Translations under genes and position numbers: made by a program | Notes under the pieces: model-generated | Told to the model about the DNA's origin: nothing | What the model saw: the letters and a program-made list of their open reading frames with translations, nothing else | The model's database searches: none | In this document: piece after piece, positions 3,866 to 17,520 of the stretch | Layout: the number at the start of each line of letters is the position of its first letter | Position numbering within the stretch: the first letter of the stretch is position 1 | DNA from: Lactobacillus helveticus DSM 20075 = CGMCC 1.1877 | GTDB lineage: Bacteria; Bacillota; Bacilli; Lactobacillales; Lactobacillaceae | Assembly (NCBI RefSeq): GCF_000160855.1 | Contig: NZ_GG700752.1 | Location: forward strand, 230,749 to 248,297 | DNA: 17,549 bases | Reading direction: 5' to 3'

Positions 3866-3921
3866 AGATTGTAAAATTAATCCGAACGCTGTTCGGACAA
3901 AAAAGATCAGCTTCCTTTAAA
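3866..3921 (+). repeat. 56-bp direct repeat, left copy
   Basis: Identical base for base to 17465-17520 and in the same orientation, 13,599 bases apart. Just outside, GG precedes and TGG follows the mismatched edge base in both copies. It contains the palindrome TCCGAACGCTGTTCGGA (3881-3897). The pdp homology begins at the next base, 3922. The distant copy lies at the broken end of a TMEM175-like gene on the minus strand, which reads through it as FFVRTAFGLILQS. It may be a gene fragment, an unrecognised element end, or a recombination joint. Confidence 0.9.
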
Positions 3922-4965
3922 GTGGGAGACAAAACAAGTATTCCTTTGGCAGCGGTGGTGGCCGCTTTAGGGATCCCGGTACCCATGATCTCCGGTCGGA
4001 GCCTCGGCCATATCGGTGGAACCCTGGATAAACTGGAAGCCATTCCAGGCTATCAGGTTGAAATTAGTGAGCAGGATTTCATTAAACAAGTCAAGAAGGA
4101 TCACTTAGCCATTATCGGCGCCACGGGAAATATTGCGCCGGCCGATAAGAAGATCTACGCCTTACGTGACGTAACCGATACGGTTGATTCAATTCCACTA
4201 ATTGCCGGTTCAATTATGAGCAAAAAGATTGCTTCTGGGACCGATGCCTTGGTGATTGATGTTAAAACTGGTGCGGGCGCCTTCATGAAGACATTGGAAG
4301 ATTCTAAAGCGCTTGCCAGGGCCTTGGTTGACATTGGCAAAGGCGTTGGCATGCAATTTATGGCGCTGATTACAGACATGAACCAGCCATTAGGGAATGT
4401 GATTGGCAACTCACTTGAGATTGAAGAATCAATTGATTTATTGAAAGGTAATGGCCCAGCTGATTTGGAAAAACTGATTGTGACTATTGGTGGCTACATG
4501 GCAGTCATGGGTGACAAAGCTAAAACAACTGCTGAAGGGCAGAAAATGTGTGAGGAAGTCATTCATAATGGCCAGGCCTTAGCCAGCTTCGAAGCGATGG
4601 TTAGGGATCAGGGCGGTGATCCCAATGTTGTCAACGATCCAAATGGGGTCTTGCCCCAGGCTAAATACCAAATTCAATTACCTGCCAAAACATCAGGTGT
4701 AATTGCTAAAATTGTTGCCGATGAAGTTGGCGTTGCCAGCATGTTACTCGGTGGCGGCCGTCAAAAGGCTGACAATCAATTGGATTACTCGGTTGGTATT
4801 GTACTCAATAAAAAGATTGGTGATAAGGTCGAATCTGGTGAACCGCTGTTAACGATTTATAGTAATCGTGAAGAGATTGATGATATTAAGAAATTGTTGT
4901 ATGACAATATTGAAGTGGCAGACACAGCCAAAGTGCCAGAGTTGATTTACACAACGATTGAGTAA
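3922..4965 (+). pseudogene. pdp: pyrimidine-nucleoside phosphorylase, 5'-truncated
   Basis: Thymidine/uridine phosphorylase of the Pdp/DeoA family, which splits pyrimidine nucleosides with phosphate. Family sequence starts abruptly at VGDKTSIPLAAVVAALG (3922) and continues intact: SGRSLGHIGGTLDKLEAIPG, then IMSKKIASGTDALVIDVKTG, and the C-terminal domain to a normal stop. About 347 residues remain of the usual 433. Missing are the first 85-90 residues, including the KHSTGG part of the phosphate-binding site, so activity is very unlikely. The frame is open back to an ATG at 3844, but those 26 residues come from intergenic and repeat DNA, have no ribosome binding site, and follow a terminator. 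No internal stop or frameshift has accumulated, suggesting a recent break or a joint made in assembly. Confidence 0.87.
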
Positions 4966-5031
4966 GCCGATTTTAATCAGTGAATCAGCCATAATGATGA
5001 TGTAATTTTGGAACCATCATAATCCATCCCC

Positions 5032-5081
5032 AAAAGCTTCACCTGCGATGCATAAGTAGCGCTCAGAGGTGAAGCTTTTTT
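5032..5081 (+). terminator. Rho-independent terminator after pdp
   Basis: A 13-pair perfect stem AAAAGCTTCACCT (5032-5044) with AGGTGAAGCTTTT (5067-5079), a 22-base loop, and a T run. It separates the pdp remnant from the fatty acid promoter region. Confidence 0.85.
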
Positions 5082-5132
5082 GCTGCTCATTTGAACTGAA
5101 GCTACTTTAAATATCCGTTATTTAAAAAAATC

Positions 5133-5161
5133 TTTACGGGTCCTCGCAACCCGTATACAAT
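5133..5161 (+). promoter_or_regulatory. fab operon promoter P1
   Basis: TTTACG (5133-5138), 17-base spacer, TACAAT (5156-5161). The operator core starts about 30 bases after the -10, so repression from it alone would act downstream of the predicted start site. Confidence 0.7.
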
Positions 5162-5183
5162 GACGTTTATCGGCATGCCGTTA

Positions 5184-5216
5184 ACCAGAATAGTTTGATA
5201 TTCAAACTAATATGGT
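5184..5216 (+). promoter_or_regulatory. FabT-like operator O1
   Basis: Core palindrome TAGTTTGATATTCAAACTA (5191-5209), perfect over 8-bp arms with a TAT centre. The outer arms out to 5184 and 5216 contain two mismatched pairs. The TTTGA-N3-TCAAA core fits known FabT sites of Gram-positive bacteria. Confidence 0.75.
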
Positions 5217-5251
5217 ATATGATGTGTTTTATTCAAATATTTAAAAAAATC

Positions 5252-5280
5252 TTTACGGGTCCTCGCAACCAGTATATAAT
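5252..5280 (+). promoter_or_regulatory. fab operon promoter P2
   Basis: TTTACG (5252-5257), 17-base spacer, consensus TATAAT (5275-5280). Predicted transcription start falls at about 5287, right at the edge of operator O2, so FabT binding should block it directly. The -10 is better than that of P1. Confidence 0.78.
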
Positions 5281-5287
5281 GCCGTTA

Positions 5288-5320
5288 ACCAGAATAGTTT
5301 GATATTCAAACTATTCTGGT
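5288..5320 (+). promoter_or_regulatory. FabT-like operator O2, 33-bp perfect palindrome
   Basis: Same core as O1 (5295-5313), but the symmetry is perfect for 15-bp arms from ACCAGAATAG outward around a TAT centre. It directly follows the P2 -10 box. FabT (encoded second in the operon) is the expected ligand, giving autoregulation. Confidence 0.8.
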
Positions 5321-5386
5321 ATATGATGTGTTTTGTTCAAAATGAGGGCTTCATGTTTTTAATTTTAAGGGACGCTTCTCAATAAT

Positions 5387-5448: not shown

Positions 5449-5895
5449 ATGAGTGTATTAGATGCAGCTGAAATTATGGATTTGATTCCGAACCGTTACC
5501 CAATCCTGTTTATGGATAAGGTCGACGAATTAAATCCTGGTGAGTCAATTGTTTGTACCAAGAACGTGACAATTAATGAAGAATTTTTCCAAGGCCATTT
5601 TCCTGGCAATCCAGTCATGCCTGGTGTGTTGATCATTGAGTCACTTGCCCAAGCCGCTTCAATTTTGATTTTAAAGACAGAGAAATATCAAGGCAAAACG
5701 GCTTATCTGGGGGCAATTGACAGTGCCAAATTCAGAAAAGTCGTTCGTCCGGGCGATGTCCTTAAACTACACGTCACCATGGAAAAACAACGTGACAATA
5801 TGGGCAAAGTCAAGTGTGAAGCAAAGGTCGAAGATAAGGTTGCCTGTTCTGCAGAGTTAACGTTTATCGTCCCTGATCCTAAGAAGAAAATCTAA
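5449..5895 (+). CDS. fabZ: 3-hydroxyacyl-ACP dehydratase FabZ
   Basis: 148-residue hotdog-fold dehydratase that removes water from 3-hydroxyacyl-ACP to give trans-2-enoyl-ACP in the elongation cycle. The active-site motif [20 protein letters not shown] is intact, with His50 and Glu64 as the catalytic pair. Length and start (AAAGGAAG six bases before the ATG) fit the family. It is the first gene of the operon, directly behind the duplicated FabT-controlled promoters. No fabA, fabB or fabM is present in the window. In some Firmicutes a FabZ relative (FabN) also isomerises the double bond; whether this copy does so cannot be told from sequence. Confidence 0.95.
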
Positions 5896-5924
5896 TTTGG
5901 ACAAATTGGTAGGAGACCAATCTC

Positions 5925-6392
5925 ATGAATGCAATAAGTGATGAAATTAAAGAAGACTACAACTTCATTAGCGATTCTTTGGTGGACATTTATGATCAGA
6001 TTATGCGAATCGAAGAGAGCGAAATCAAGAAGAGCCATTTTAAGGACATCACCGCAAAAGAATTGCATTTGGTCCATACGATTGGCTTACATGACCGTAA
6101 AACGACGTCCGAGGTTGCTCGGATCTTGCGATTGAGCAAGGGAACGCTGACAGCTAATTTAAATAATTTGGAACGCAAAGGGTACATTTCCCGGATAAGG
6201 AATCAACGGGATCGGCGAATCATTAATTTGGTGTTAACTAGTAAAGGCCGACTGCTTTACCGAGCCCATTATGCATTCCATCAAAAATTGGTTGAGCAGT
6301 GTCTCAAGGGATTCGACGGTTCGGATATCAAAAAAATGAAGCAAGCGTTAATGAACGTGGAAGATTTTATTGGTGAGGTTTCGGGTAGATGA
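5925..6392 (+). CDS. fabT: MarR-family fatty acid synthesis repressor FabT
   Basis: 155-residue MarR-type winged-helix regulator. Helix-turn-helix about residues 58-90 (TSEVARILRLSKGTLTANLN), wing at RNQRDRRIINLVLT (93-105), flanked by dimerisation helices at both ends. FabT proteins in streptococci and lactococci bind a TTTGA-N3-TCAAA palindrome, helped by long-chain acyl-ACP, and repress the FASII genes. Here matching palindromes lie in the operon's promoter region and before fabI, so autoregulation is likely. Ribosome binding site GGTAGGAG lies about nine bases upstream. The stop codon overlaps the fabH start as ATGA. Identification as FabT rather than another MarR protein rests on position and operators. 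Confidence 0.9.
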   Translation: MNAISDEIKEDYNFISDSLVDIYDQIMRIEESEIKKSHFKDITAKELHLVHTIGLHDRKTTSEVARILRLSKGTLTANLNNLERKGYISRIRNQRDRRIINLVLTSKGRLLYRAHYAFHQKLVEQCLKGFDGSDIKKMKQALMNVEDFIGEVSGR

Positions 6393-7372
6393 AATTTGAA
6401 GATTTCAAAATCATGGCAACAGCCAGTTCGGCACCTGACCACGTTGTGACTAACGATGAGTTAGCGACGATGATGGATACGTCAGATGAGTGGATCACGC
6501 AACGGACCGGGATTAAGCGCAGACGGATTGCGACTGAGGAAACGACCAGTTCAATGTGTACTGATGTGGCGACACAATTAATTGCCCAAAGTGACTTAAC
6601 TGCTAAAGATATTGATTTGATTGCGGTGGCTACGATGTCGCCGGATTATCTCACCCCATCTGTGAGTGCGATGGTTCAAGGTAATATTGGGGCGGATCAT
6701 GCCATTGCCTTTGATATTGACGCAGCCTGTTCAGGATTTGTTTACGGGTTACATTTGGTAAAACAGATGTTGATTGCCAATCAGCAAAAAAATGCCATTT
6801 TGATTGGTGGCGAAACCCTCAGCAAATTGTTGGATTGGTCTGATCGATCCACCGCAGTGCTGTTTGGCGATGGTGCTGGCGGCGTTTTGATTCGAAACAC
6901 AGCTGTAGATAAGGGTTCGTTTATCAGTGAAGATCTGCGGACATTAGGTAATCTGGGTCAATATTTAACTGCTGGCCAAACAGGCAATCCGTCACCATTT
7001 GCAACAGATCAACAGCCATTTTCACCGTTCTTCAAGATGAGTGGCCGGCGAGTTTATAGCTTCGCCGTTAAGAACGTGCCAGAATCAATTAACGACGCCT
7101 TGAAGCAGGCCAATTTAACGGCTGATGAGGTTGACTGTTTTGTTTTACATCAGGCCAACCGCCGGATTGTGGAACGGATCGCCGATGAATTGGCGGTCTC
7201 GATGGCTAAGTTTCCAATTAACATTGATGAATATGGAAACACAGCTGCGGCCAGCGAACCAATTTTGTTAGATCAATTAGTTAAACAAAAAATCATTAAA
7301 AGGGGGGATGTCATCGCCCTATCCGGATTTGGCGGCGGATTAACGGTTGGAACCATGATTATGAAATATTAG
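6389..7372 (+). CDS. fabH: 3-oxoacyl-ACP synthase III FabH
   Basis: 327-residue condensing enzyme that joins an acyl-CoA primer to malonyl-ACP and so starts each fatty acid chain. Catalytic triad visible: Cys114 in DIDAACSGFVYG, His254 in VLHQANRRIV, Asn284 in DEYGNTAAAS; the C-terminal GFGGGLTVGTMIMKY is typical. The spacing between His and Asn (30) equals that of the E. coli enzyme. The start overlaps the fabT stop by four bases, so translation is probably coupled; a GGTGAGG lies about ten bases upstream. Confidence 0.96.
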   Translation: MKFEDFKIMATASSAPDHVVTNDELATMMDTSDEWITQRTGIKRRRIATEETTSSMCTDVATQLIAQSDLTAKDIDLIAVATMSPDYLTPSVSAMVQGNIGADHAIAFDIDAACSGFVYGLHLVKQMLIANQQKNAILIGGETLSKLLDWSDRSTAVLFGDGAGGVLIRNTAVDKGSFISEDLRTLGNLGQYLTAGQTGNPSPFATDQQPFSPFFKMSGRRVYSFAVKNVPESINDALKQANLTADEVDCFVLHQANRRIVERIADELAVSMAKFPINIDEYGNTAAASEPILLDQLVKQKIIKRGDVIALSGFGGGLTVGTMIMKY

Positions 7373-7430
7373 CAAGCAATGAACATTGATGAACAAAAAA
7401 AGAATAACAAACATTTAGAGGAGATTTATT

Positions 7431-7673
7431 ATGACTAAAGAAGAAGTATTTAACAAGATCAAGGACATTATCGTAGACCAATTGGACGTAGACGCTGACA
7501 AGGTTAAAGAAAACACCAATTTCAAGAACGACTTGGATTTAGACAGTTTGGACATCTTTGAAGTGATTGACAAGATCGAAGACCTTTACGATATCGAAAT
7601 CGATACTGATGAAAGTATGGAAACTGTCGGTGAATTAGTTGATTACGTTTTGAAGCAAAAAACTGACAAGTAG
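7431..7673 (+). CDS. acpP: acyl carrier protein
   Basis: 80-residue, strongly acidic four-helix carrier. Ser39 in DLDLDSLDIFEV is the site for the 4'-phosphopantetheine arm that carries the growing chain. Strong ribosome binding site (AGAGGAG eight bases before ATG), in keeping with the high abundance of ACP. The 58-base gap before it is the largest between the early genes of the operon; no terminator or clear promoter is seen there. The acyl carrier protein synthase gene is not in the window. Confidence 0.96.
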   Translation: MTKEEVFNKIKDIIVDQLDVDADKVKENTNFKNDLDLDSLDIFEVIDKIEDLYDIEIDTDESMETVGELVDYVLKQKTDK

Positions 7674-7682
7674 GTCGATAAT

Positions 7683-8600
7683 TTGAAACTAGGTTATTTA
7701 TTTAGCGGCCAAGGTAAGCAATTTGGCAAAATGGGACAGGACTTGTATCAACAAGAACCTGTTTATCGGCAAACAATTGATCAAGCTTCCGAAGCTTTGA
7801 ATATGGATATGAGCGATGCCACCGTTTTTGATAATCCGGTCAATACCCAAGTGGCGATTGTCGCCATGAGTACAGGGATTGAACGGATTATCAATCAAGA
7901 TTTTGGTGATCCAGTTGGTGCCACTGGTTTGAGTCTTGGTGAGTATAGCGCGATTGTCGCTGCCAAGGGATTGGACTTCAGTGATGCCCTTCAATTGGTT
8001 CGTGATCGCAGTCACTACATGGATAAAGCCGGTCAGGATCATCCTGGCAAAATGGCGGCTGTCTTAAAAACGACTGCTGACATGGTCGACCAAGCGGTAA
8101 AAGTCGGTTCGAAGAAGGGTGAGATCTATGTAGCCAATTACAACACAGATTCTCAAATTGTGATTGGTGGTTCCATTGAGGGGCTTCAAGCAGCTACCGA
8201 TTATCTGCATGAGCACGGTGTTAAACGGGTTGTCCCGTTGAAAATGACGGTTGCGTCTCACACCCCATTTATGCAGGAGGCCTCCGATTTGTTGGCAAAA
8301 CGAATTCAAGATGTCTCGTTTAACCAGTTGGCTTTCCCAGTGATCAGTAACACAACGTCTCAACCTTTCGAAGTTAACACGATTAAGCAAACGTTAATCG
8401 ATCAGCTCATTAATCCAACCCATTTTTATAACTGCATTCAACAGCTTACTCAATTGGGTGTTGATACAGTTGTTGAACTGGGCCCTGGCGATACGTTGAT
8501 GAAGTTTGCCAAGAATGTGGTGGCGAACGATCATACATTCCATATTGATAGTGTTAAGACGTTAAACGATTTTCGATCAAAAGCAAAGTTGGTGAAATAA
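7683..8600 (+). CDS. fabD: malonyl-CoA:ACP transacylase FabD
   Basis: 305-residue transacylase that moves malonyl from CoA to ACP. Nucleophile Ser84 in TGLSLGEYSAIVAAKGL and His193 in VASHTPFMQEA are visible, as is the N-terminal FSGQGKQ loop and a C-terminal ELGPGDTLMKF. The only start matching the family N-terminus is TTG at 7683 (protein begins with KLGYLFSGQG), nine bases after the acpP stop, with a weak AGGTCGA. The rare start codon and weak site may keep FabD below ACP. The stop overlaps the fabG start (TAATG). Confidence 0.94.
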   Translation: MKLGYLFSGQGKQFGKMGQDLYQQEPVYRQTIDQASEALNMDMSDATVFDNPVNTQVAIVAMSTGIERIINQDFGDPVGATGLSLGEYSAIVAAKGLDFSDALQLVRDRSHYMDKAGQDHPGKMAAVLKTTADMVDQAVKVGSKKGEIYVANYNTDSQIVIGGSIEGLQAATDYLHEHGVKRVVPLKMTVASHTPFMQEASDLLAKRIQDVSFNQLAFPVISNTTSQPFEVNTIKQTLIDQLINPTHFYNCIQQLTQLGVDTVVELGPGDTLMKFAKNVVANDHTFHIDSVKTLNDFRSKAKLVK

Positions 8601-9331
8601 TGAATGACACAAAACAAGTTGCATTAGTAACCGGAGCTGCCAAGGGAATTGGCCTGGCAATCGCTAAACGGCTTTCAAGTGATGGGATGACAGTTGTGAT
8701 TAACTCACACCATCCCTTAACTGACGAAGAGAAACAAAGCTTTTCAGACGCAGGCTTTTCATTTGATAATTTGGTTGGCGATGTGGCTAATGAAGCCGAC
8801 GCTGAAAAAATAGTCGGCGAAGTTGTTGAAAAATACGGTCAAATTGACGTTCTGGTGAACAATGCCGGCATTACAAAGGACAAGTTGTTAAGCCGGTTAA
8901 AGTTAGCTGATTTTAAAGCCGTGATCGACACGAACCTGGTGGGTGCTTTTAACATGACCAAGTTTGCGATGAAATTCATGCAAAAGAGCCGCTCAGGGGC
9001 CATTGTGAACTTGTCCAGCATTTCTGGGTTACATGGTAATTTGGGTCAGGCAAATTATTCAGCCAGCAAGGCCGGACTAGTCGGGTTAACGAAGACCGCT
9101 GCCAGAGAGGGTGCCCTGAGAAATATTCGGTGTAACGCGGTTGCCCCCGGAATGGTTGCCACTGACATGACTGGTAAAATGAGCGAACGCCGACAAAAAG
9201 AATTTACGGATCAGATTCCGTTGAAACGATTTGCCGAACCTGATGAGATTGCCGACGCGGTCGCATTTTTGATTCATAATCAGTACATCACTGGCCAAGT
9301 GGTCACGGTCGATGGCGGTTTAACAATTTAG
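8600..9331 (+). CDS. fabG: 3-oxoacyl-ACP reductase FabG
   Basis: 243-residue short-chain dehydrogenase that reduces 3-oxoacyl-ACP with NADPH. Seen: Rossmann loop TGAAKGIG (11-18), NNAG (87-90), Ser140, then Tyr153 and Lys157 of NYSASKAG. The end VTVDGGLTI is typical. One-base overlap with fabD implies translational coupling. No other SDR protein except FabI lies in the window, so this is the cycle reductase. Confidence 0.95.
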   Translation: MNDTKQVALVTGAAKGIGLAIAKRLSSDGMTVVINSHHPLTDEEKQSFSDAGFSFDNLVGDVANEADAEKIVGEVVEKYGQIDVLVNNAGITKDKLLSRLKLADFKAVIDTNLVGAFNMTKFAMKFMQKSRSGAIVNLSSISGLHGNLGQANYSASKAGLVGLTKTAAREGALRNIRCNAVAPGMVATDMTGKMSERRQKEFTDQIPLKRFAEPDEIADAVAFLIHNQYITGQVVTVDGGLTI

Positions 9332-9352
9332 AGTTGTTGAAGGAGTAAATTA

Positions 9353-10582
9353 ATGAGCAGGGTAGTGATTACCGGAATGGGAATTGTTTCCCCAATTGGA
9401 AACGATGTTGAAAGTTTTTTGAAGAATTTATTTGCTTCTAAAGTGGGCATTAATCCAATTACCAAATTTGACGCAGAGCCGACTGGCATTACCGTTGCTG
9501 GTGAGGTGAAAGACTTTGACCCGTTAAAACGAGTTGACAAGAAGTTTGCCAAGCGAAATGATTTGTTCTGTACTTATGCACTGTATAGTGCCAAAGAAGC
9601 AATGGAGATGGCTGGTCTCACCGAAGACAACATTGATCCTGAAGATCTTGGCGTGATTTATGGTTCTGGAATTGGTGGCTTGACCACTATTCAAGAACAG
9701 GTTATCAAGATGCATGATAAGGGCCCTAAGCGGGTATCCCCATTGTTTGTTCCGGATTCAATTAGTAATATGGCGGCCGGTAACATTTCGATTGCTTTTA
9801 ATGCGCTGAACACCAGCCAGGGAATTGTCACCGCCTGTTCATCAGGAACTAACGCGATTGGAAATGCGTTTGAGTATATCAAGCAAGGCAAGGCGAAGGC
9901 CATTATTGCGGGTGGAACCGAAGCGTCAGTGAATGAAATTGGAATTTCTGGCTTCGCGGCCTTAACGGCATTGTCCAAGGAAACTGATCCAAAGAAGGCT
10001 TCAATTCCATTTGATAAGGATCGGAATGGATTTGTGCTTGGTGAAGGTTCTGGAACTTTGATCCTTGAAGATTACGATCACGCCAAAGCCCGCCATGCCA
10101 ATATTTTAGCTGAAATTGTTGGTTATGGAACCACCAGCGACGCCTATCATATGACTGCCCCGGACCCAGAAGGCAAGGGTGCCATTCGTGCCATGCAACA
10201 AGCGATTGATGAAGCCGGCATCGATGAAACCGAAGTTGATTACATCAATGCTCATGGAACCAGCACCCATGCTAACGACAGCGCCGAATCTAAAGCTATT
10301 AAACAAGTCTTTGCCAAGAATGACCATGTTAAAGTCAGCAGTACCAAAGGGATGACTGGCCATGCACTGGGAGCTGCCGGCGCAATTGAAGCCGTTGCAA
10401 CGATTGGCGCAATCCAGCATAACCAGATGCCCGTGAACGTCGGTGTGGTTAACCAAGACGAAGCCTGTGATATTGAGTTGGTTAACGACGACAATAAAAA
10501 AGCCCCCGTAAATTACGCAATTAGTAACTCATTTGGTTTTGGAGGCCATAACGCGGTAATTGTATTTAAGGGATGTGATTAA
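9353..10582 (+). CDS. fabF: 3-oxoacyl-ACP synthase II FabF
   Basis: 409-residue elongating condensing enzyme. Catalytic Cys162 in VTACSSGTNAIG, His301 in INAHGTSTHAND, Lys332 in STKGMTGHALG and His337 are all present, with the C-terminal SNSFGFGGHNA. AAGGAG ribosome binding site nine bases before ATG. No fabB paralogue is in the window, so FabF probably carries out all elongations encoded here. accB begins three bases after its stop. Confidence 0.96.
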   Translation: MSRVVITGMGIVSPIGNDVESFLKNLFASKVGINPITKFDAEPTGITVAGEVKDFDPLKRVDKKFAKRNDLFCTYALYSAKEAMEMAGLTEDNIDPEDLGVIYGSGIGGLTTIQEQVIKMHDKGPKRVSPLFVPDSISNMAAGNISIAFNALNTSQGIVTACSSGTNAIGNAFEYIKQGKAKAIIAGGTEASVNEIGISGFAALTALSKETDPKKASIPFDKDRNGFVLGEGSGTLILEDYDHAKARHANILAEIVGYGTTSDAYHMTAPDPEGKGAIRAMQQAIDEAGIDETEVDYINAHGTSTHANDSAESKAIKQVFAKNDHVKVSSTKGMTGHALGAAGAIEAVATIGAIQHNQMPVNVGVVNQDEACDIELVNDDNKKAPVNYAISNSFGFGGHNAVIVFKGCD

Positions 10583-10585
10583 ACA

Positions 10586-11056
10586 ATGAATGAGAAAGAA
10601 ATTGAACGCTTGCTTGAGAAATTTGATCAATCATCACTGAAAGACTTCGAATTGACTCAGGATGACTTCAAATTAAAGTTGAGTAAACGTGAGCAGAATG
10701 ACCAAGTTGTTGTTCAGCAGCCGACTGGTTCTAAAACGCCAGTCAGTGAAGTGCCAAAATCTACCAGTGCCAATTCTCAACCTGCTGGCGAGCCGCAACA
10801 GTCAGTCAAGGACTATGTTGCCGAAATTAAGGCACCGTTTGTCGGCGTCGTTTACTTTGCACCAAGTCCGGATAAACCGGTTTATAAAAAACAGGGTGAC
10901 CACGTTGAAAAAGGTGAGGTCGTTTGTGTGATTGAAGCCATGAAGATGATCAACGAGGTCAAGAGCAATGTCACTGGAACAATTTCTAATATTTTAGTTG
11001 AAGATGGGAGCATGGTCGAATATGACCAGCCGATTTTTCAAGTCACGAAGGGTTAA
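10586..11056 (+). CDS. accB: biotin carboxyl carrier protein of acetyl-CoA carboxylase
   Basis: 156-residue BCCP. An N-terminal helical part (1-35) is followed by a flexible linker rich in Gln, Pro, Ser and Thr (about 40-78) and the biotinyl domain (80-155), with biotin-accepting Lys120 in VIEAMKMINEV. A thumb-type insertion (FAPSPDKPVYKKQG) marks it as a true AccB. It carries CO2 between AccC and AccDA. BirA, which attaches the biotin, is encoded at the end of the same operon. Confidence 0.96.
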   Translation: MNEKEIERLLEKFDQSSLKDFELTQDDFKLKLSKREQNDQVVVQQPTGSKTPVSEVPKSTSANSQPAGEPQQSVKDYVAEIKAPFVGVVYFAPSPDKPVYKKQGDHVEKGEVVCVIEAMKMINEVKSNVTGTISNILVEDGSMVEYDQPIFQVTKG

Positions 11057-11060
11057 TTAA

Positions 11061-11477
11061 ATGAAACCAGCAGTAAATGATGTCATTCCACAGCGTTATC
11101 CCTTTGAAATGATTGATAAGTTTATTGATGTTCAACCAGGAGTTTCAGCCTCAGCCATTAAGCTGATTTCGATTAATGAGTGGTTCTTTGCCAACCAAAC
11201 GAGTAGTCGATTAGCAGTGCCACGCCCAATTATGATCGAGGCAATGGCTCAAACCGGGGTTGCGGCGATTTTGTCGATTCCTGAAAATAAAGGGGAGAAT
11301 GTCTTTTTCGGTGGAATCAAGAATGCCACTTTTCAAGATGACTTTCGACCCGGTGACAAATTGGAATTTGAAGTTGTCATGAAAAAATTGAAACGGAATA
11401 TTGGCTTGGGTCACGGGACGATTCATCGTGATGGCCAATCAATTTGTGAAGCTGATTTAATTTTTGCAGTTGAATGA
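11061..11477 (+). CDS. FabZ-like hotdog protein lacking the catalytic His
   Basis: 138 residues, clearly a FabZ paralogue: the N-terminal IPQRYPFEMIDKF aligns with [13 protein letters not shown] of the first FabZ, and IMIEAMAQTG with [10 protein letters not shown]. Aligning without gaps, the [11 protein letters not shown] loop is replaced by NQTSSRLAVPR: Gln46 stands where catalytic His50 lies, while the Glu (Glu60) is kept. A second fabZ-type gene between accB and accC is usual in lactobacillus fab operons. Without the His, ordinary dehydration is doubtful; it could partner the active FabZ, bind acyl-ACP, or work with altered chemistry. Gaps to neighbours are 4 and 13 bases, so it is co-expressed. 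Confidence 0.9.
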   Translation: MKPAVNDVIPQRYPFEMIDKFIDVQPGVSASAIKLISINEWFFANQTSSRLAVPRPIMIEAMAQTGVAAILSIPENKGENVFFGGIKNATFQDDFRPGDKLEFEVVMKKLKRNIGLGHGTIHRDGQSICEADLIFAVE

Positions 11478-11490
11478 CGGAGGTGAGCAG

Positions 11491-12870
11491 ATGTTTAAAA
11501 AAGTATTAGTGGCTAATCGTGGTGAAATTGCCGTCCAAATTATTCGGGCACTGCACGATATGGGCATCACGGCGGTAGCAGTCTATTCTAGTGCTGATAA
11601 AGACAGTTTGTTCGTTCACTTAGCTGATGAGGCAATCTGTATTGGTGGACCACAACCGAGCGAGTCGTATCTCAATATGGCTCAAATCATTAGTGCTGCT
11701 AACCTGACTGGGTGTGAAGCAATTCATCCTGGCTACGGATTCTTGTCAGAGAACGCCGAATTTGCGGAACTCTGCGAAACCTGTCATATCAAGTTTATCG
11801 GTCCCAGTCACGAATTGATTTCGCTGATGGGTGATAAAGCAAATGCCAGAGAAGCCATGAAAAAAGCTGGCGTGCCAGTAATTCCTGGTAGCCAGGGAGT
11901 TGTCAAAACAGCCAGCCAAGCAGAAACAGTTGCAGAAAAAATTGGCTTCCCAGTCTTATTGAAGGCAGCTGCAGGTGGCGGTGGTAAGGGAATTCGTGAG
12001 GTTGATCGACCAGAAGATCTTCATAGTGCCTTCGAGCAGACTCAACAAGAAGCCCGGGTATCGTTCAACAACGATGATATTTATGTCGAAAAATTGATTC
12101 GAAATGCCAAACACGTCGAAATGCAAGTCATTGCCGATGAATTTAACCATGTGGTCTATCTGCCAGAGCGGGATTGTTCCCTTCAGCGGAACCACCAAAA
12201 GGTGATCGAGGAAAGCCCCTGTGTCCAGATTTCACCGACTGAACGGAAAAAATTGGGCGAAATTGTTGCCAATGCAACTTTAAAATTAGGCTATACCAAT
12301 ACAGGGACCTATGAATTCTTGATGACCGAAGACCACCACTTTTACTTCATGGAAATGAACACCAGACTTCAAGTTGAGCACACGATTACCGAAGAAGTGA
12401 CCGGTATCGAATTGGTTAAAGCCCAGCTGAAGGTTGCTGATGGGCAAGAGCTGCCATTTACGCAAGCAGATGTAGCCGTAAAGGGACATGCCCTTGAGTG
12501 TCGTCTCAACGCCGAAGATCCTAGTCATAACTTCGCTCCCCGACCAGGTCGGATTAATAATTTGTTCTTTCCGGCTGGGTCACTCGGAGTTCGAATTGAT
12601 TCCGGGGTCGCCCAGGGAAGCTTTATTTCACCATTCTATGATTCAATGATTGCCAAAGTGATCGTTCATTTGAATGATCGGAATACCGTAATTGCCAAGA
12701 TGAATCGAATTCTAGGGGAACTCAAGATCAATGGGGTAGTGACTAATCAAACCTTCTTAAAGTATTTGATTAACACTGCTGAATTTAATTCCGGCCAGTA
12801 TTCAACCAACTTTATCGAGAATCAGGTTTTAACGAACAAGGAGGGATTCCATGTTGCAGAGTCGGTTTAA
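11491..12870 (+). CDS. accC: acetyl-CoA carboxylase biotin carboxylase subunit
   Basis: 459-residue ATP-grasp enzyme that carboxylates the biotin on AccB. Seen: biotin carboxylase N-domain (FKKVLVANRGEIAVQIIRAL), glycine-rich loop AAAGGGGKGIRE (159-170), and EMNTRLQVEH (288-297) holding Glu288, Asn290, Arg292, Gln294 and Glu296 in the E. coli numbering. I start at ATG 11491, five bases after an ideal GGAGGTGA site; an upstream in-frame ATG at 11464 lies inside the preceding gene and adds residues foreign to the family. The end overlaps accD by 20 bases. Confidence 0.96.
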   Translation: MFKKVLVANRGEIAVQIIRALHDMGITAVAVYSSADKDSLFVHLADEAICIGGPQPSESYLNMAQIISAANLTGCEAIHPGYGFLSENAEFAELCETCHIKFIGPSHELISLMGDKANAREAMKKAGVPVIPGSQGVVKTASQAETVAEKIGFPVLLKAAAGGGGKGIREVDRPEDLHSAFEQTQQEARVSFNNDDIYVEKLIRNAKHVEMQVIADEFNHVVYLPERDCSLQRNHQKVIEESPCVQISPTERKKLGEIVANATLKLGYTNTGTYEFLMTEDHHFYFMEMNTRLQVEHTITEEVTGIELVKAQLKVADGQELPFTQADVAVKGHALECRLNAEDPSHNFAPRPGRINNLFFPAGSLGVRIDSGVAQGSFISPFYDSMIAKVIVHLNDRNTVIAKMNRILGELKINGVVTNQTFLKYLINTAEFNSGQYSTNFIENQVLTNKEGFHVAESV

Positions 12871-13693
12871 AATGCCCAGTCATGACGAATTAGTCAAACG
12901 AATGGATGCAATCCCCGACCATGTAATGCGGGAATGCCCAATTTGTCATGCCAAGTTTTTATCGATGAGGTTGGGCCGTGACCATACATGTCCAAAGTGT
13001 GGGTATGGTTTTCGGATTTTGGCCAAACGGCGTGTCAAGATCACATTTGATAAGTTCACTGAAATTGATCAAAATATCACGGTTCCTGATCGATACACTG
13101 ATGAGAAGTATCGAGCTAAGATTGCCAAAGCCAAGAAAGTAACTGGTCTTAACGAAAGTGTGCTGACTGGAATTGGGTCGCTGAATAAGCAACAGGTTGC
13201 TGTGGGCATTATGGATCCATTTTGGATCATGGGTAGTCTAGGCAGTGCAACCGGTGAAAAAATTACCCGATTGTTTGAACTGGCCACTCGAAAGGATTTA
13301 CCAGTGGTCATGTTCACCTCTTCAGGTGGTGCTAGGATGCAGGAAGGCATACACTCCTTGATGCAAATGGCAAAGATTTCCAGTGCCGTTGCGGAACATA
13401 GTGCGGCTGGGTTATTGTACATCGTGGTTCTTTGCGATCCAACGACTGGTGGGGTGACTGCCAGTTTTGCAATGGACGGGGACATCATTTTAGCTGAACC
13501 ACACGCTTTAGTGGGATTTGCCGGTCGTCGTGTAATCGAACAAACAATCATGCAAACACCCCCCAAAGATTTTCAAAGCGCTGAAACCGTCATGAAACAT
13601 GGTTTCATTGATCAGATTGTGAAACGGTCCGACATGAAGAAAACACTGACCCAACTCCTCCGCTTACATACAAAGGAGAATGCATATGGTTAA
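12851..13693 (+). CDS. accD: acetyl-CoA carboxylase carboxyltransferase beta subunit
   Basis: 280-residue CT beta subunit with an N-terminal zinc ribbon (Cys29, Cys32, Cys47, Cys50 in CPIC and CPKC pairs) and a crotonase-type domain with FTSSGGARMQEG and GGVTASFAMDGD. With AccA it moves the carboxyl from biotin to acetyl-CoA. The AAGGAGGG site eight bases before ATG lies inside accC, giving a 20-base overlap. It overlaps accA by eight bases; the two subunits are made in equal amounts in the complex, which coupled translation would favour. Confidence 0.95.
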   Translation: MLQSRFKMPSHDELVKRMDAIPDHVMRECPICHAKFLSMRLGRDHTCPKCGYGFRILAKRRVKITFDKFTEIDQNITVPDRYTDEKYRAKIAKAKKVTGLNESVLTGIGSLNKQQVAVGIMDPFWIMGSLGSATGEKITRLFELATRKDLPVVMFTSSGGARMQEGIHSLMQMAKISSAVAEHSAAGLLYIVVLCDPTTGGVTASFAMDGDIILAEPHALVGFAGRRVIEQTIMQTPPKDFQSAETVMKHGFIDQIVKRSDMKKTLTQLLRLHTKENAYG

Positions 13694-14456
13694 TAAAACA
13701 GCCTATCAGCGGGTTCAAGGTGCTCGTAGAAAAGATAAAATTTCGATTGCAGAGCTGATTCATGGTTTGACAACTGACTTCTTTGAGCTCCATGGCGATC
13801 GATTAGAGGCGGATGATCACGCGTTGATTGGTGGAGTTGGTTTGTTGAACAACCGGCCAATCACGGTTGTGGGTATCCAAAAGGGCGCTGATACTGACGA
13901 GAATATTGACCGTCATTTTGGGAGTTCGACGCCGCAAGGTTATCGCAAAGCACTACGCTTAATGAAGCAAGCTGAAAAATTCCACCGGCCCATTTTGGCG
14001 TTGGTTAATACACCAGGTGCCTGGCCAGACGTGGAATCCGAATATCATGGTCAGGGCTCAGCAGTTGCTCAATGTATCATTCAGGGGATGCAGCTCAAGG
14101 TACCTTATATCAGTATCATTGTTGGCGAAGGTGGGAGTGGGGGAGCTCTCGCCTTGGCATGTGGTGATCGGGTGTTGATGTTTGAGGACAGTATTTACTC
14201 CGTTCTCTCGCCCGAAGGCTATGCAAGTATTATGTGGAAAGATTCTTCAAAGGTGCAACAGGCTGCCGAAGAACTTGGGTTAACTCCAGATAGTTTACTG
14301 AAAGATGGTATTATTAATCAAATTATTCATGAATATAAACCTGGTGATGATTTAAGTGATTTGCGCGACTTCTTGGACAAACAGTTTACCGAACTCGAGA
14401 ATTTGCCAATGAGCGAATTAATTGAACAAAGACAACGACGTTTTAGAAAGTATTAA
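13686..14456 (+). CDS. accA: acetyl-CoA carboxylase carboxyltransferase alpha subunit
   Basis: 256-residue CT alpha subunit. Seen: ELHGDRLEADDHALIGGVG, LALVNTPGAWPDVESEYHGQ and VGEGGSGGALALACGDRV, which form the acetyl-CoA/biotin face with AccD. I choose the ATG at 13686 because AGGAG (13674-13678) is seven bases upstream; the ATG at 13680 is only one base from it. It is somewhat shorter than the E. coli protein (about 319), as usual in lactobacilli, lacking the long N-terminal extension. It is followed by a 58-base gap with a FabT-like palindrome before fabI. Confidence 0.94.
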   Translation: MVNKTAYQRVQGARRKDKISIAELIHGLTTDFFELHGDRLEADDHALIGGVGLLNNRPITVVGIQKGADTDENIDRHFGSSTPQGYRKALRLMKQAEKFHRPILALVNTPGAWPDVESEYHGQGSAVAQCIIQGMQLKVPYISIIVGEGGSGGALALACGDRVLMFEDSIYSVLSPEGYASIMWKDSSKVQQAAEELGLTPDSLLKDGIINQIIHEYKPGDDLSDLRDFLDKQFTELENLPMSELIEQRQRRFRKY

Positions 14457-14471
14457 TTCTTGAATTTGCAC

Positions 14472-14493
14472 TTAATTTGACAATTCAAATTAA
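14472..14493 (+). promoter_or_regulatory. FabT-like palindrome upstream of fabI
   Basis: Perfect 9-bp arms TTAATTTGA (14472-14480) and TCAAATTAA (14485-14493) around a CAAT centre. The arms share the TTTGA...TCAAA core of the operon operators, but the centre is four bases rather than three. A TTGACA hexamer overlaps it (14477-14482), yet the only -10-like box (TAAAAT, 14497) is at a poor 14-base distance. It may be an internal FabT site. Confidence 0.4.
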
Positions 14494-14514
14494 AAATAAA
14501 ATGGAGGCTCAATC

Positions 14515-15273
14515 ATGAGTGACTTTTTAGATGGTCAAACAATCGTAATCATGGGGGTTGCGAATAAGCGAAGCATTGCTTGGGGATGTACTCGGGCAAT
14601 TATGAACCAGGGCGCAAAAGTTGTCCTGACGTATCAAAATGATCGGATCAAGAAGAGTCTGAAGCGCTTTGTTCCCGAAGATCTGGACTTACTTGAATGT
14701 GACGTTTCAGAAGATGAAAACATTGAAAAGGCGTTCGCTGAAATTGGCGACCGCTATGGTAAGATTGACGGTGTCATTCATGCCATTGCTTATGCTGACA
14801 AGGATACATTGACTTCTGGATTGGTTAATACCACTAAAGATGGGTATGATTTAGCCCAAAATATCAGTGCTTATTCATTAATTGCAGTTGCCAGATATGC
14901 TCAACCAGTGCTGAACAACCCAGCCAGCATCTTGACGTTGACTTACTTTGGGTCCACTCGGGCAATCCCTAATTACAATATGATGGGCGTTGCCAAAGCC
15001 GCTTTGGAAGCCAACGTCCGTTATTTAGCATCAGATTTAGGTGCGACTGGTATTCGAGTGAACGCAATTTCTGCTGGGGCCGTTAAGACATTGGCAGTTA
15101 CTGGGATTAAAAATCATGGCGAGTTATTAAAAGAATCCGAATCACGGACAGTTGATCAAAAGAGTGTTACAACTGATGAAATTGGTAACGTTGCTGCCTT
15201 TTTGATGAGTGATTTGTCAACTGGAATGACCGGCGATGTGGTATATGTTGATAAGGGCGTTCATCTGATTTAA
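14515..15273 (+). CDS. fabI: enoyl-ACP reductase FabI
   Basis: 252-residue NADH-dependent reductase that completes each elongation round and is the target of triclosan-type inhibitors. Seen: IMGVANKRSIAWGCTRA nucleotide loop, Tyr144, and the catalytic Tyr154-x6-Lys161 in NYNMMGVAKAALEA, spaced as in E. coli FabI; the end GDVVYVDKGVHLI is typical. GGAGG lies seven bases before ATG. No fabK is in the window, so this is the visible enoyl reductase. Confidence 0.96.
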   Translation: MSDFLDGQTIVIMGVANKRSIAWGCTRAIMNQGAKVVLTYQNDRIKKSLKRFVPEDLDLLECDVSEDENIEKAFAEIGDRYGKIDGVIHAIAYADKDTLTSGLVNTTKDGYDLAQNISAYSLIAVARYAQPVLNNPASILTLTYFGSTRAIPNYNMMGVAKAALEANVRYLASDLGATGIRVNAISAGAVKTLAVTGIKNHGELLKESESRTVDQKSVTTDEIGNVAAFLMSDLSTGMTGDVVYVDKGVHLI

Positions 15274-15320: not shown

Positions 15321-16310
15321 ATGGCGGATCATCAATCACAGATTTTACGAGCATTATTGGAACTGGATAACCGTTATATTTCCGGAAATGAACTTGCTCG
15401 GCACTTCAACATCAGTCGGCTGGCCGTTTATAATAACATTCAAAAGCTTAAGCAAAAGGGGCATCTGATTGAGACGAAGAAGGGATTGGGATACAGCTAT
15501 CAGAAGTCAAAATGTTTTGATGCTCAAGTGATCGATCATTATCGAGTGACAACTTACCCGGTCAGAATGCACGTGTTTGATCGGCTAACTTCAACCAATG
15601 ATTACGCTAAGCAGTACGGCACCGAAAAAACGGTGTACAAGCCCCAGATCTTCGTGGCGGATACCCAGACGAAAGGGCGTGGGCGCTTGGGTCGGCGATT
15701 TTATTCACCAGCCAAGACCGGTATCTATATGAGCTTGCTGATTCCGATTCAAACTCGCCAAACGCTGCATTCCGGGTTAATCACAACTGGCACAGCCGTC
15801 TGTGTAGTTCGTTCACTTCAACCCTTTTTTCCACAGGTCGATTTTCGCGTGAAATGGGTCAATGATATTCTTGCTCATGACAAAAAATGTGGTGGGATTT
15901 TGACTGAGACAACTGCCAGTCTTGAAGATGGCTCTCATGAAAATGTGATCGTGGGGATTGGTCTCAACGTTGATACAGATGACTTTCCGGATCCGATTAA
16001 ACACAAAGCCGGCGCAATTGTTGCTCATAGCCAAATTGACCGCAATAAGATTGTGGCCAAGATTATCGACAATTTCTTTTACATGTATCAAACTTACCAA
16101 ACTGGCAATTTTTTGTCGGAATATGCGCAATTATCAGATATCCTGGGTCGAAAGATTCGGGTCGAAATGGGCAGCCGGGTCTATCTGGGCATTGCTGATC
16201 ATTTCGATAATGAAGGGGCATTGGTGATGAACACTGATTCAGGCCAGCTGACAGTTTCTAGTGGTGAAGTGACGAAAGTTTATTTACCAGAAAATGGTTA
16301 TACTGGCTGA
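15321..16310 (+). CDS. birA: biotin--protein ligase / biotin repressor BirA
   Basis: 329 residues. An N-terminal winged helix-turn-helix (about 5-60; SGNELARHFNISRLAVYNNI) precedes the ligase domain with GRGRLGRRFYSPAKTG (119-134), KWVNDI (178-183) and Lys188/Lys189 before CGGILTE, and a C-terminal SH3-like part. It makes biotinyl-AMP and attaches biotin to Lys120 of AccB; the DNA-binding domain suggests it also represses biotin genes. It follows fabI after 47 bases without a visible terminator, so it is probably in the operon. The GAGGTAATAAA before ATG supports the start. Confidence 0.94.
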   Translation: MADHQSQILRALLELDNRYISGNELARHFNISRLAVYNNIQKLKQKGHLIETKKGLGYSYQKSKCFDAQVIDHYRVTTYPVRMHVFDRLTSTNDYAKQYGTEKTVYKPQIFVADTQTKGRGRLGRRFYSPAKTGIYMSLLIPIQTRQTLHSGLITTGTAVCVVRSLQPFFPQVDFRVKWVNDILAHDKKCGGILTETTASLEDGSHENVIVGIGLNVDTDDFPDPIKHKAGAIVAHSQIDRNKIVAKIIDNFFYMYQTYQTGNFLSEYAQLSDILGRKIRVEMGSRVYLGIADHFDNEGALVMNTDSGQLTVSSGEVTKVYLPENGYTG

Positions 16311-16328
16311 GCTAATCCATTACATTTA

Positions 16329-16366
16329 TGGTTAACTTGGATTGGGGTTCACTTAACCGTTAACAA
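16329..16366 (+). promoter_or_regulatory. possible BirA operator upstream of bioY
   Basis: Half sites TGGTTAACT (16329-16337) and CGTTAACAA (16358-16366) resemble the TTGTTAACC...GGTTAACAA pattern of Firmicute biotin operators. The centre-to-centre distance is about 28 bases, roughly three more than usual, and the outer bases match imperfectly. No clear promoter was seen with it. Confidence 0.3.
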
Positions 16367-16383
16367 CTCATAGGAGCGTTTAG

Positions 16384-16926
16384 ATGAAAATCACAGAAAT
16401 TGTTCAAACGGCACTGATTACTGCAACCATTATTATTTTGGGAATGATCCCACCGTTACCACTTGGTTTCATTCCGGTTCCAATTGTGATGCAGAATTTG
16501 GGAATCATGTTAGCAGCCGTAATTTTAGGACCCAAAAAAGGAACCCTGGCGATTTTCGGGTTCCTCTTGCTGGCGTTGATTGGTTTTCCAGTGCTCAGTG
16601 GTGGTCAGGCAGGGCCTGCATTTTTTGTCGGACCAACTGGCGGCTATTTGCTCGGGTGGTTATTAACGCCACTCATGATCGGCTATGGTCTTTCCCGGCC
16701 ATTTATTAACCGTCGTTGGAGTCGATTAAGTATTATCTGGTTCGCCGGCGTCTTATTGGTCGATGTTATCGGCTCAGTCTGGTTATGGCTGGTCAGCCCA
16801 ATTTCATTGATTGGGTCACTCGTGTTAAATTTGGCATTTATTCCGGCGGATACATTGAAGGCAGTGGCTGTTTATTTGGTGGCCGAGAGAATGCGGATTT
16901 GGAATAAAGAAACCACTCGTTTATAA
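16384..16926 (+). CDS. bioY: biotin transporter BioY (ECF S-component)
   Basis: 180-residue membrane protein with about six hydrophobic segments and the BioY patterns PVPIVMQNLGIMLAAVILGP, GGQAGPAFFVGPTGGYLLGW and the final NLAFIPADTLKAVAVYLVAE. BioY captures biotin and works with the shared energy-coupling module EcfAA'T, which is not encoded here. AGGAG lies eight bases before ATG. Placement after birA ties biotin uptake to acetyl-CoA carboxylase; no biotin synthesis gene is present, suggesting that imported biotin is important. The 3' end overlaps the convergent minus-strand gene by 55 bases, and no terminator is seen. Confidence 0.93.
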   Translation: MKITEIVQTALITATIIILGMIPPLPLGFIPVPIVMQNLGIMLAAVILGPKKGTLAIFGFLLLALIGFPVLSGGQAGPAFFVGPTGGYLLGWLLTPLMIGYGLSRPFINRRWSRLSIIWFAGVLLVDVIGSVWLWLVSPISLIGSLVLNLAFIPADTLKAVAVYLVAERMRIWNKETTRL

Positions 16927-17261
16927 GAATACAAAAATTGATAGTGTCCAACAGCTTTTTCGAGATGATCCAGATCAATAGAAGTCACGCTGCCATCACC
17001 ATTTGTTATCATCAGACTGGGCAAGGCGGTAATGCCAATCCGGTAAAAAAGGGATTGGTAGTCATCTGGGTCAGCATCAGCAAAATCGAAATAATAAGCC
17101 TGTATCGAATTTAATTTCAGCGCGTATTTCAATTTAGGAACAATGAGGCGACTCAGTCGATAGCGAGGGCTGCCAATAAAAATCAATTTGAACTGAGATT
17201 CTTGAATCAGGGTGGTTAGTTTCTGCAGATCGACTGGGGAAATAAGCTTGGAAGGTTTCAT
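16872..17261 (-). CDS. thioredoxin-fold protein without the CxxC motif
   Basis: 129 residues. A thioredoxin-like pattern is visible: beta strand FKLIFIG (24-30), then S31-P-R-Y34 where CGPC would stand, a helix, strand AYYFDFADADPDDYQ (56-69), and ITALPSLMITNGDG (77-90) with the cis-Pro (Pro81) region. No cysteine is seen anywhere, so disulphide chemistry is excluded; a binding or chaperone-like role is possible. The start ATG overlaps the TGA of the upstream TMEM175-like gene (ATGA), implying coupled translation. The last 18 or so codons overlap the end of bioY. Function unknown; fold assignment is by eye and moderate. Confidence 0.65.
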   Translation of the reverse strand: MKPSKLISPVDLQKLTTLIQESQFKLIFIGSPRYRLSRLIVPKLKYALKLNSIQAYYFDFADADPDDYQSLFYRIGITALPSLMITNGDGSVTSIDLDHLEKAVGHYQFLYSYKRVVSLFQIRILSATK

Positions 17262-17515
17262 CTCTTTGCGGTAGCGATGGCACTGTCACGACTAAGAAAA
17301 CTGTCGTTGAGCCATGATGTTGCAAACGGGGTTAAGCTGATGAAACAGAGGTAGTAGATGTTCGTAATGGTTAACATTGGGGTGGCCTTCTTAATCCCAC
17401 TGAGCAACTCTTGATGATAAACCCAGTACTGGGAGACAATTGCGAAACTAATAAAGTAAATGGTAGATTGTAAAATTAATCCGAACGCTGTTCGGACAAA
17501 AAAGATCAGCTTCCT
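17258..17515 (-). pseudogene. TMEM175/DUF1211-like membrane protein, C-terminal part only
   Basis: 85 codons before the TGA at 17260-17258. IYFISFAIVSQYWVYHQELL and IYYLCFISLTPFATSWLN match the helix pattern of bacterial TMEM175 (potassium channel-like, SF...YW..H...L then LxPFATS). The N-terminal helix with the FSD-type motif is absent. Upstream in this frame the reading runs through the 56-bp repeat (FFVRTAFGLILQS) and meets a TAA at 17518-17516, without a start codon. The remaining window bases stay open only in another frame (from LKDGFVVNTIL), so a frameshift in a longer gene cannot be excluded. It lies directly upstream of, and overlaps by four bases, the thioredoxin-fold gene. Confidence 0.6.
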
Positions 17516-17520
17516 TTAAA
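17465..17520 (+). repeat. 56-bp direct repeat, right copy
   Basis: Identical to 3866-3921 in the same orientation, including the TCCGAACGCTGTTCGGA palindrome (17480-17496). It lies at the 5' edge of the TMEM175-like fragment and only 29 bases from the end of the window. Here the reading frame on the minus strand passes from the repeat into the recognisable family sequence without a break, so this copy may be the original. Confidence 0.9.

Follow-up and report, generated by a model that had tools for sequence, protein, structure and literature searches.

Two identical 56-bp sequences in the same orientation (positions 3866-3921 and 17465-17520; 13,599 bp from start to start) bracket the fatty acid synthesis (FASII) locus of the window, the whole stretch of 17,549 nucleotides analysed here, and raise the question of what they are and whether a single event placed both. 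An earlier interpretation made from the letters alone (the sequence-only reading) had reported the repeats and their co-orientation, which comparison within the window confirmed; the match stretches to 63 nt at 97% (3863-3925 versus 17462-17524), far beyond chance. It had also seen a broken gene at each repeat, pdp on the left and a TMEM175-like gene on the right, and both breaks were supported.

Both repeats are left tips of ISLpl1, a 1043-bp member of the IS30 family that is already known and very common in lactic acid bacteria and was reportedly described by Nicoloff and Bringel in 2003. The sequence-only reading had proposed searching the complete genome and relatives, and had named a simple known element scattered over unrelated sites as an outcome that would refute it. 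That outcome was obtained: the repeat occurs in at least 118 stretches of public genomes and in 1115 plasmid records. Across 126 copies compared, 110 different 20-bp left flanks precede a common sequence to the right, so the repeat is the end of an insertion sequence (IS); 46 of these copies reach a contig end and 10 reach N, 70 can be followed, and the gapless survey overcounts breaks where copies carry small indels. Of 27 copies whose right end was recognised, 16 measure 1043 bp (1035 counted plus 4 per tip), and the inverted repeats (GGTAGATTG...) match. The transposase of a full copy (L040) scores 262 bits against the IS30 model NF033563 (cut-off 80) and is identical at 305 of 308 residues (99%) to a protein annotated as "IS30-like element ISLpl1 family transposase". 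The window differs in holding just the first 59 and 88 bp of the element, and no ISLpl1 transposase gene was found within it. A mobile-element end had been suggested, correctly, but the element, then called unrecognised, is ISLpl1. No consistent target duplication was seen by eye in the listed flanks of ISLpl1 copies, neither window copy has both ends, and a phage origin was rejected, none of 50,697 phage records matching. As a sequence the repeat is unexceptional, and recognising this removes a false lead; the setting of the FASII genes is more interesting.

The true IS starts are 3863 (GGCA...) and 17462 (GGTA...). The left relic (3863..3921, plus strand) consists of the first 59 bp, with a GGCA tip, the left terminal inverted repeat, and a small hairpin, which was set aside as unremarkable (z = -1.62); the remaining IS is missing. 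On the closed plasmids pH10 (L. helveticus H10) and pEB01-1 (L. gasseri DSM 14869), the window's left flank on the GlsB side meets a GGCA-tipped ISLpl1 relic at the identical base, and the same flank and tip, with ~335 bp of the IS, occur on contig C39 of a relative, the Lactobacillus genome G001. The plasmid relics differ in extending over IS nt 1-287, compared with 59 bp in the window, and in continuing into other sequence (nrdFIE in pEB01-1) and not into pdp. Because flank and tip are common to pH10, pEB01-1, and G001:C39, and GGCA, the rarest of four tip variants, occurs in 2 of 126 copies, the left insertion was a separate event. The relic is a fossil insertion carried by a Lactobacillus plasmid family in which the GlsB flank is followed by ISLpl1 and, in pEB01-1, by an SDR remnant and then nrdF-nrdI-nrdE.

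The right copy (17462..17549, plus strand) is the 88-bp left tip of another ISLpl1, either the element itself or a shorter derivative, and leaves the window. The same IS continues through 29 further bases to the window end, and the apparent end at 17520 is merely the point where the left copy stops matching. The copy adjoins a TMEM175-like fragment (PF06736; 17282..17464, minus strand), which has an intact 206-aa relative in L. parakefiri (L190); its position in a broken TMEM175-like gene had been described accurately, but this gene is a fragment of ~180 bp that is cut on its 3' side too. The right flank (16900-17470) had no plasmid match. The copy would be a separate ISLpl1-type insertion into this gene fragment. 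The proposal that one event made both repeats is not supported, since the left copy is an insertion common to Lactobacillus plasmids and G001 and the right copy has a different tip and a different flank. The left site establishes that the two tips were placed independently, and we infer the same for the right. The reading that we regard as probable combines this independence with a left fossil plasmid insertion shortened by a deletion into pdp, a separate insertion on the right, and a FASII block of Lentilactobacillus type in plasmid-type DNA.

The left copy stops where pdp homology begins, as had been claimed: at 3921/3922, IS nt 59 is joined to the inside of pdp and the two sides have no base in common at the break, a probable deletion junction without microhomology. 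What is left of pdp (pyrimidine-nucleoside phosphorylase; 3922..4965, plus strand) is 5'-truncated and lies in a fused ORF (3844-4965, 373 aa) that had no match to the N-terminal domain. The frame happens to be kept across the joint and the ORF passes two phosphorylase models (TIGR02644 and NF004490), which counts against the reading favoured here. G001 has an intact pdp of 439 aa (L138:16306-17625, minus strand) and carries nrdF-nrdI-nrdE-deoR-pdp-FASII-birA-bioY on one contig (C57). As nrdFIE adjoins the relic in pEB01-1 and adjoins deoR-pdp-FASII in G001:C57 (99.6% over 4152 bp, in matching orientation), the left joint most plausibly reflects a deletion of ~6.6 kb (6647 bp in the combined pEB01-1 and G001 layout) that would have taken out nrdFIE and deoR together with the 5' part of pdp; a single deletion from IS nt 59 into pdp codon ~90 would give the joint seen. 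It speaks against a deletion that the IS|pdp joint was found in the window alone. C39 and C57 are, moreover, not joined in G001, whose sequence past nrdF is unlike that of pEB01-1, and the pre-deletion order is thus pieced together from two sources. As the cause of the break, insertion of a further IS at nt ~60 was rejected, with nothing of the kind at the window joint; one other ISLpl1 copy (L045) departs from the IS at nt 60 and re-enters its far end after ~100 bp.

The best-surviving rival, which we consider unlikely yet worth weighing, is that the left IS|pdp joint is an artefact (a chimeric read, a gap closure, or a draft or metagenome misjoin) and that deoR-pdp is in truth intact at this locus, as it is in G001. 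The solitary joint agrees with this: it was found in 0 of 397 family genomes, none of the matches listed from 298 relatives crosses it by more than 5 bases, and of 1060 matching plasmid records none covers 80% of an 80-bp query with the joint at its centre. The plasmid matches reaching furthest span 57 of 80 bp at 89.5%, and 2 of the 10 such records listed, when examined, had an IS30-type transposase, a recombinase, and pcp as annotated neighbours, not pdp. The window also stops inside an IS, as draft contigs do. Yet, because the joint shares no bases, a k-mer graph could produce it only from a read that contains it, and pdp codon ~90 offers no repeat where a contig would stop. Drafts of Furfurilactobacillus milii contain numerous odd joins in the first ~100 bp of the IS (11 of 16 enter its far end directly or after a short stretch, and 5 of 16 enter other DNA), but tip-only relics joined to other DNA were also found in drafts of three other species (L016, L027, and L060), so such relics need not be errors. 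The narrower suggestion of an assembly joint, made because 56 is near a k-mer size, was rejected: closed plasmids carry the flank|IS joint too, and at the IS|pdp joint the two sides share nothing that a k-mer graph could confuse.

The substitutions in pdp bear on the same rival. Three of its seven amino-acid differences fall within the first 31 codons past the joint, as errors might, and two of these, G53S and T57I, affect residues invariant in the listed homologues that have a residue there (119 of 120); they may point to a loss of function or to errors but do not settle the matter. Pseudogene decay was rejected as proof of an old truncation, with no excess of amino-acid change over the FASII genes (nonsynonymous/synonymous counts of 7/4 in pdp versus 49/24 across 14 other genes, without bioY; Fisher p = 1.0), and the truncation is therefore recent or not real.

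It is improbable that the two repeats are the ends of one FASII-carrying, IS-bounded unit, with an entire ISLpl1 as its right boundary and a solitary inverted repeat as its left, moved together by the ISLpl1 transposase. The left relic does retain its terminal inverted repeat, the copies are co-oriented, and the plasmid-type surroundings of FASII differ between the window and G001. In a composite transposon both ends arrive with the cargo, whereas the left relic occupies the same site on pH10 and pEB01-1 without adjoining FASII and bears the rarest tip; the left outer end is present as a relic, and the right one, the right end of the right copy, lies beyond the window. The G001 block, moreover, is flanked otherwise on both sides, its nearest ISLpl1 tip (C57:334) lying 3.3 kb past the collinear part. 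One duplication-mediated rearrangement of an unknown 56-bp sequence, one of the earlier explanations, would fit the identity and co-orientation of the repeats but has almost no probability left, because the sequence is the end of a known IS that has more than a thousand copies elsewhere and the left copy stands at an identical site in other plasmids. Excision of FASII by recombination between the copies, as the sequence-only reading envisaged, is hypothetical but would be possible in principle.

The FASII cluster (5449..15273, plus strand) comprises fabZ, a MarR/FabT-type regulator, fabH, acpP, fabD, fabG, fabF, accB, fabZ2, accC, accD, accA, and fabI, a complete gene set in a single cluster within the window, followed by birA and bioY (15321..16926, plus strand). 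The FASII order is the same in an L. backii plasmid (L163) and in L. parakefiri (L189). The locus of L. parakefiri JCM 8573 (G398:C99) shares order and spacing throughout pdp-FASII-birA-bioY, but its pdp is frameshifted and 81% identical to that of the window, and its FabH is 73% identical. Comparison of the G001 block matched pdp to L. kisonensis (87%) and BirA to L. fungorum (80%); the best other FabH in the genus of G001 is at 65%. Since pdp, BirA, and gene order point to Lentilactobacillus relatives while the EF-Ts of G001 is of Lactobacillus type, FASII is foreign in G001. The block would be a Lentilactobacillus-type segment now within plasmid-type DNA; the donor genus is not settled, because for several FASII proteins a brewery plasmid is nearer to the window than L. 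parakefiri is. In G001, the sole FabH match at E 1e-60 lies in the FASII locus, and FabF has one further match outside it, partial and at 41%.

Left of the relic, the window is plasmid-type DNA (1..3862) with a GRP sugar transporter (10-999, minus strand), an ISL3 element with a split transposase (1012-2471), a resolvase (2550-3128, minus strand), and a GlsB/YeaQ-type protein (3489-3746, plus strand); positions 2506-3080 had no match of their own among the records compared. Plasmids match most of the first 3.9 kb of the window and both sides of the G001 copy at 96-99.6%; C57 agrees with L. plantarum plasmids at 99.3% in its left module and with L. gasseri plasmids at 99.6% in its right one. 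The proteins identified there include no replication protein, and the window FASII had no near match in 72,556 plasmids, which, like the lack of a plasmid match for the right flank, weighs against the reading favoured here. By its flanks, the pdp-FASII-birA-bioY block is embedded in plasmid-type DNA in both genomes, and in the window it probably sits on a patchwork plasmid. IS relics such as these allow the build-up of a plasmid mosaic to be retraced step by step.

A plasmid FASII cluster in brewery Pediococcus damnosus (PMC4814128) and Loigolactobacillus backii (PMC5000825) has been published as a determinant of growth in beer; it has the same order as the window, fabZ-marR-fabH-acp-fabD-fabG-fabF-accB-fabZ-accCDA-fabI (in L. 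backii also birA-bioY), and lies on plasmids with IS elements including ISLpl1. The brewery clusters are ~73% identical in DNA to the window FASII, no pdp was found beside them, and the L. backii cluster has transposase genes inside, whereas the window cluster has none. The window locus is probably a new addition to this known plasmid-borne kind. If it is plasmid-borne here too, mobile fatty acid synthesis recurs in a different host genus and at some sequence distance, beyond a brewery oddity of P. damnosus and Lg. backii, and host lipid autonomy could be tested by plasmid curing. More tentatively, with slightly less than an even chance, the window may represent a second plasmid-carried FASII lineage, in which the whole pdp-FASII-birA-bioY locus passed from a Lentilactobacillus-like genome to IS-rich Lactobacillus plasmids, serving hosts without a full FabH/FabF of their own, and flanking ISLpl1 copies let the locus be reshuffled or lost; fatty-acid prototrophy would then be a plasmid trait of gain and loss. 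Upstream of fabZ lies a tandem duplication (5119..5341), present in G001 too, with the palindrome AGTTTGATATTCAAACT, which we take to be a putative FabT-type operator.

The two 56-bp copies, at 3866-3921 and 17465-17520, are identical and share one orientation, just as the sequence-only reading had noted; they lie 13,599 bp apart from start to start, and with their flanking bases the match extends to 63 nt at 97%. In public genomes, the core of the 56-mer turns up in at least 118 stretches; the full 56-mer matches 1115 plasmid records from lactic acid bacteria (761 of these at ≥99% identity) and no phage record. We compared a set of 126 copies, of which the 118 public stretches supplied 121, the Lactobacillus relative G001 three, and the window itself two. 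On the left, their 20-bp flanks comprise 110 different sequences; on the right, they have a common sequence until a contig end, an N run, or a break. The element measures 1043 bp in 16 of the 27 copies with a recognised right end, and its transposase (309 aa) belongs to the IS30 family (NF033563 score 262 bits, cut-off 80) and shares 305 of 308 residues with a Loigolactobacillus (Lg.) backii plasmid protein that carries an ISLpl1-family annotation. The original description of ISLpl1, by Nicoloff and Bringel in 2003, reportedly gives 1043 bp. Because of this shared element sequence, the length, and the transposase match, the repeat is identified as the left tip of ISLpl1, a known insertion sequence (IS). 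The suspected mobile-element end is thus real, but it is not an unrecognised one.

The four bases preceding the core are GGTA in 105 of the 126 copies, GATA in 13, AGTA in six, and GGCA in two, these being the left copy of the window and one on contig C39 of G001. G001 is the nearest genome compared (84% of the window's sampled 31-mers), and its C39 carries window 3081-3925 at 98%, GGCA tip included; there, the IS extends for ~335 bp, up to the contig end. The closed plasmid pH10 of L. helveticus H10 carries the same segment at 97%, with GGCA and IS nt 1-287 (counted from the left tip). Plasmid pEB01-1 of L. gasseri DSM 14869 retains window 3081-3180 and the 104 bp of flank nearest the IS, again with GGCA and IS nt 1-287, and a 166-bp match of this kind is listed for eight further plasmid records, seven from L. 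gasseri and one from Lactobacillus sp. JM1. Judged from these alignments, the left copy is an old insertion common to Lactobacillus plasmids and G001, of which the window retains 59 bp.

The left copy ends at 3921 and pdp sequence begins at 3922, so that IS nt 59 is joined to pdp, with no base shared on either side. In G001, pdp is intact (439 aa) and adjoins a DeoR-like regulator (410 bits, slightly below the model cut-off of 420). The fused frame of the window has 373 aa with no N-terminal domain detected; it falls short of the NF004747 equivalog cut-off (466 vs. 559; G001 pdp scores 622) and passes TIGR02644 (422 vs. 409) and NF004490 (416 vs. 269). In pEB01-1, an SDR remnant (assigned by eye) and then nrdF-nrdI-nrdE come after the relic, and contig C57 of G001 continues from nrdF-nrdI-nrdE (99.6% to pEB01-1 over 4152 bp) into deoR-pdp-FASII in matching orientation. 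The simplest route to the joint would be a deletion of ~6.6 kb (6647 bp, as the sum of the two spacings). An artefact is a possible reading, because the joint was found in none of the genomes and plasmids searched: it is absent from all 397 genomes of the family at up to three mismatches; no listed match in 298 relatives, with two candidates scored per genome, extends more than five bases across it; and an 80-bp query centred on it matched 1060 plasmid records, none at a place covering 80%. We infer that the ~6.6-kb plasmid deletion probably produced the joint, an order pieced together from two sources, with C39 and C57 not linked in G001. Two pdp changes at window 4000 and 4013, G53S and T57I in fused-frame numbering, affect residues that are invariant in all those listed homologues, 119 of 120, in which the position is occupied. 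The pdp of Lentilactobacillus parakefiri JCM 8573 (L189:244-1562) is interrupted too, with a frame change after residue ~55.

At the right joint lies a fragment of a TMEM175-like gene (17282-17464, minus strand; PF06736), which shares 78% identity, across 63 residues, with the central part of a complete 206-aa protein of L. parakefiri. Its start is replaced by the IS from 17462, and its end is cut at 17281, where G001-collinear sequence resumes; the stretch had no match among plasmid records and no alignment to G001. With the common GGTA tip, the right copy runs past 17520, as the same element, to the final base of the window; it may belong to a complete ISLpl1 or to a reduced version of it, such as the ~202-bp derivative. 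A single event behind both gene breaks, as proposed earlier, does not fit an old shared GGCA insertion on the left and a GGTA tip at the TMEM175-like fragment on the right; the breaks probably differ in origin, and the repeats were probably placed by two events.

In these plasmids, ISLpl1 copies act as ordinary mobile and recombination units. Among the 126 copies, 46 reach a contig end and ten reach N, leaving 70 that can be followed. In only two of these, the left copy of the window and L045, does the IS break off by nt 60, and in L045 it resumes; eight further copies keep just the tip, 73-103 bp, followed by other DNA. Nine loci (L006, L019, L031, L039, L078, L083, L087, L089, L094) carry a 202-bp derivative, likely a MITE, in which ~180 bp of the left end are followed by the left inverted repeat in reversed orientation. 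Its right flanks differ in L019, L078, and L083; the other six loci share one and therefore lie within a larger shared repeat. In Furfurilactobacillus milii drafts (L014, L036, L037, L043, L044, L047, L048, L110, L114, L119), ISLpl1 copies pass directly from their first ~93-101 bp to their final ~92-98 bp, which looks like gap closure of collapsed repeats, though these may be short internal-deletion forms.

The FASII locus probably adds another example of fatty-acid synthesis encoded on a plasmid. Its left neighbour in the window is plasmid-type DNA (1-1440 and 1624-2505, ~96% to an L. reuteri plasmid), and on C57 bioY-birA-FASII-pdp-deoR is flanked by an ISLpl1-MFS-nadC-IS1165 module (99.3% to L. 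plantarum plasmids) and nrdIEF (99.6% to L. gasseri plasmids). By EF-Ts, G001 is a Lactobacillus (closest named relative L. amylovorus CAG:719, 94%); in a set of 41 genomes from its genus, itself among them, 22 carry this EF-Ts at 87-100%, 16 match it at 53-59% over ~195 residues, and three have no match. The FASII block sets G001 apart from most of that genus: FabH reaches 65% at best elsewhere in it and is absent from 25 of 42 genomes at E 1e-60, FabF is absent from 23 of 41 at 1e-40, and pdp is found in two of 41, G001 counted. One member, G227, has a more distant FASII cluster in the same order (FabH 64-65%, FabF 81-82%), in which no pdp was found. For pdp and BirA, the named relatives are Lentilactobacillus (87% L. 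kisonensis and 80% L. fungorum, respectively), and L. parakefiri shares the order pdp-FASII-birA-bioY. Brewery plasmids of Lg. backii and P. damnosus have the same FASII order at 73-74% DNA identity, and their proteins are about as distant from the window as those of L. parakefiri: FabD, AccB, the regulator, and BioY of Lg. backii are closer, whereas brewery-plasmid AccC, AccD, and FabG are further. The brewery cluster has been described as plasmid-encoded and required by P. damnosus for growth in beer (PMC4814128, PMC5000825); a search of the open-licence literature for plasmid-borne FASII in lactobacilli generally listed these two papers and two more, on Lactococcus lactis and Clostridium perfringens. 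Recombination between the 59-bp relic and a longer ISLpl1 copy could in principle excise the 13.6 kb, and a host with no other FASII would then require external fatty acids, going by the beer-growth report (PMC4814128).

On contig C39 (L139:3502-6000, L184), there are also IS30-type transposase ORFs that are interrupted, together with an ORF resembling polysaccharide deacetylase and a glycosyltransferase/acyltransferase pair (assignments by eye), reminiscent of icaA, a brewery-plasmid marker in PMC4814128. An ISL3-family element at 1012-2471 is probably inactive, since its transposase is divided between two frames (2334-1513 and 1516-1130). At 16954, close to where bioY and a thioredoxin-like ORF (assigned by eye, without Pfam match) have their 3' ends, the window lacks 171 bp of G001 (L138:3927-4097). 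The listed length of BioY is 113 aa for G001 against 180 aa for the window, and all 180 codons align, so G001 bioY probably has an early stop. Upstream of fabZ, a tandem duplication of ~104-119 bp (5119-5341), present in G001 too, contains the palindrome AGTTTGATATTCAAACT, which we take to be a FabT-type operator.
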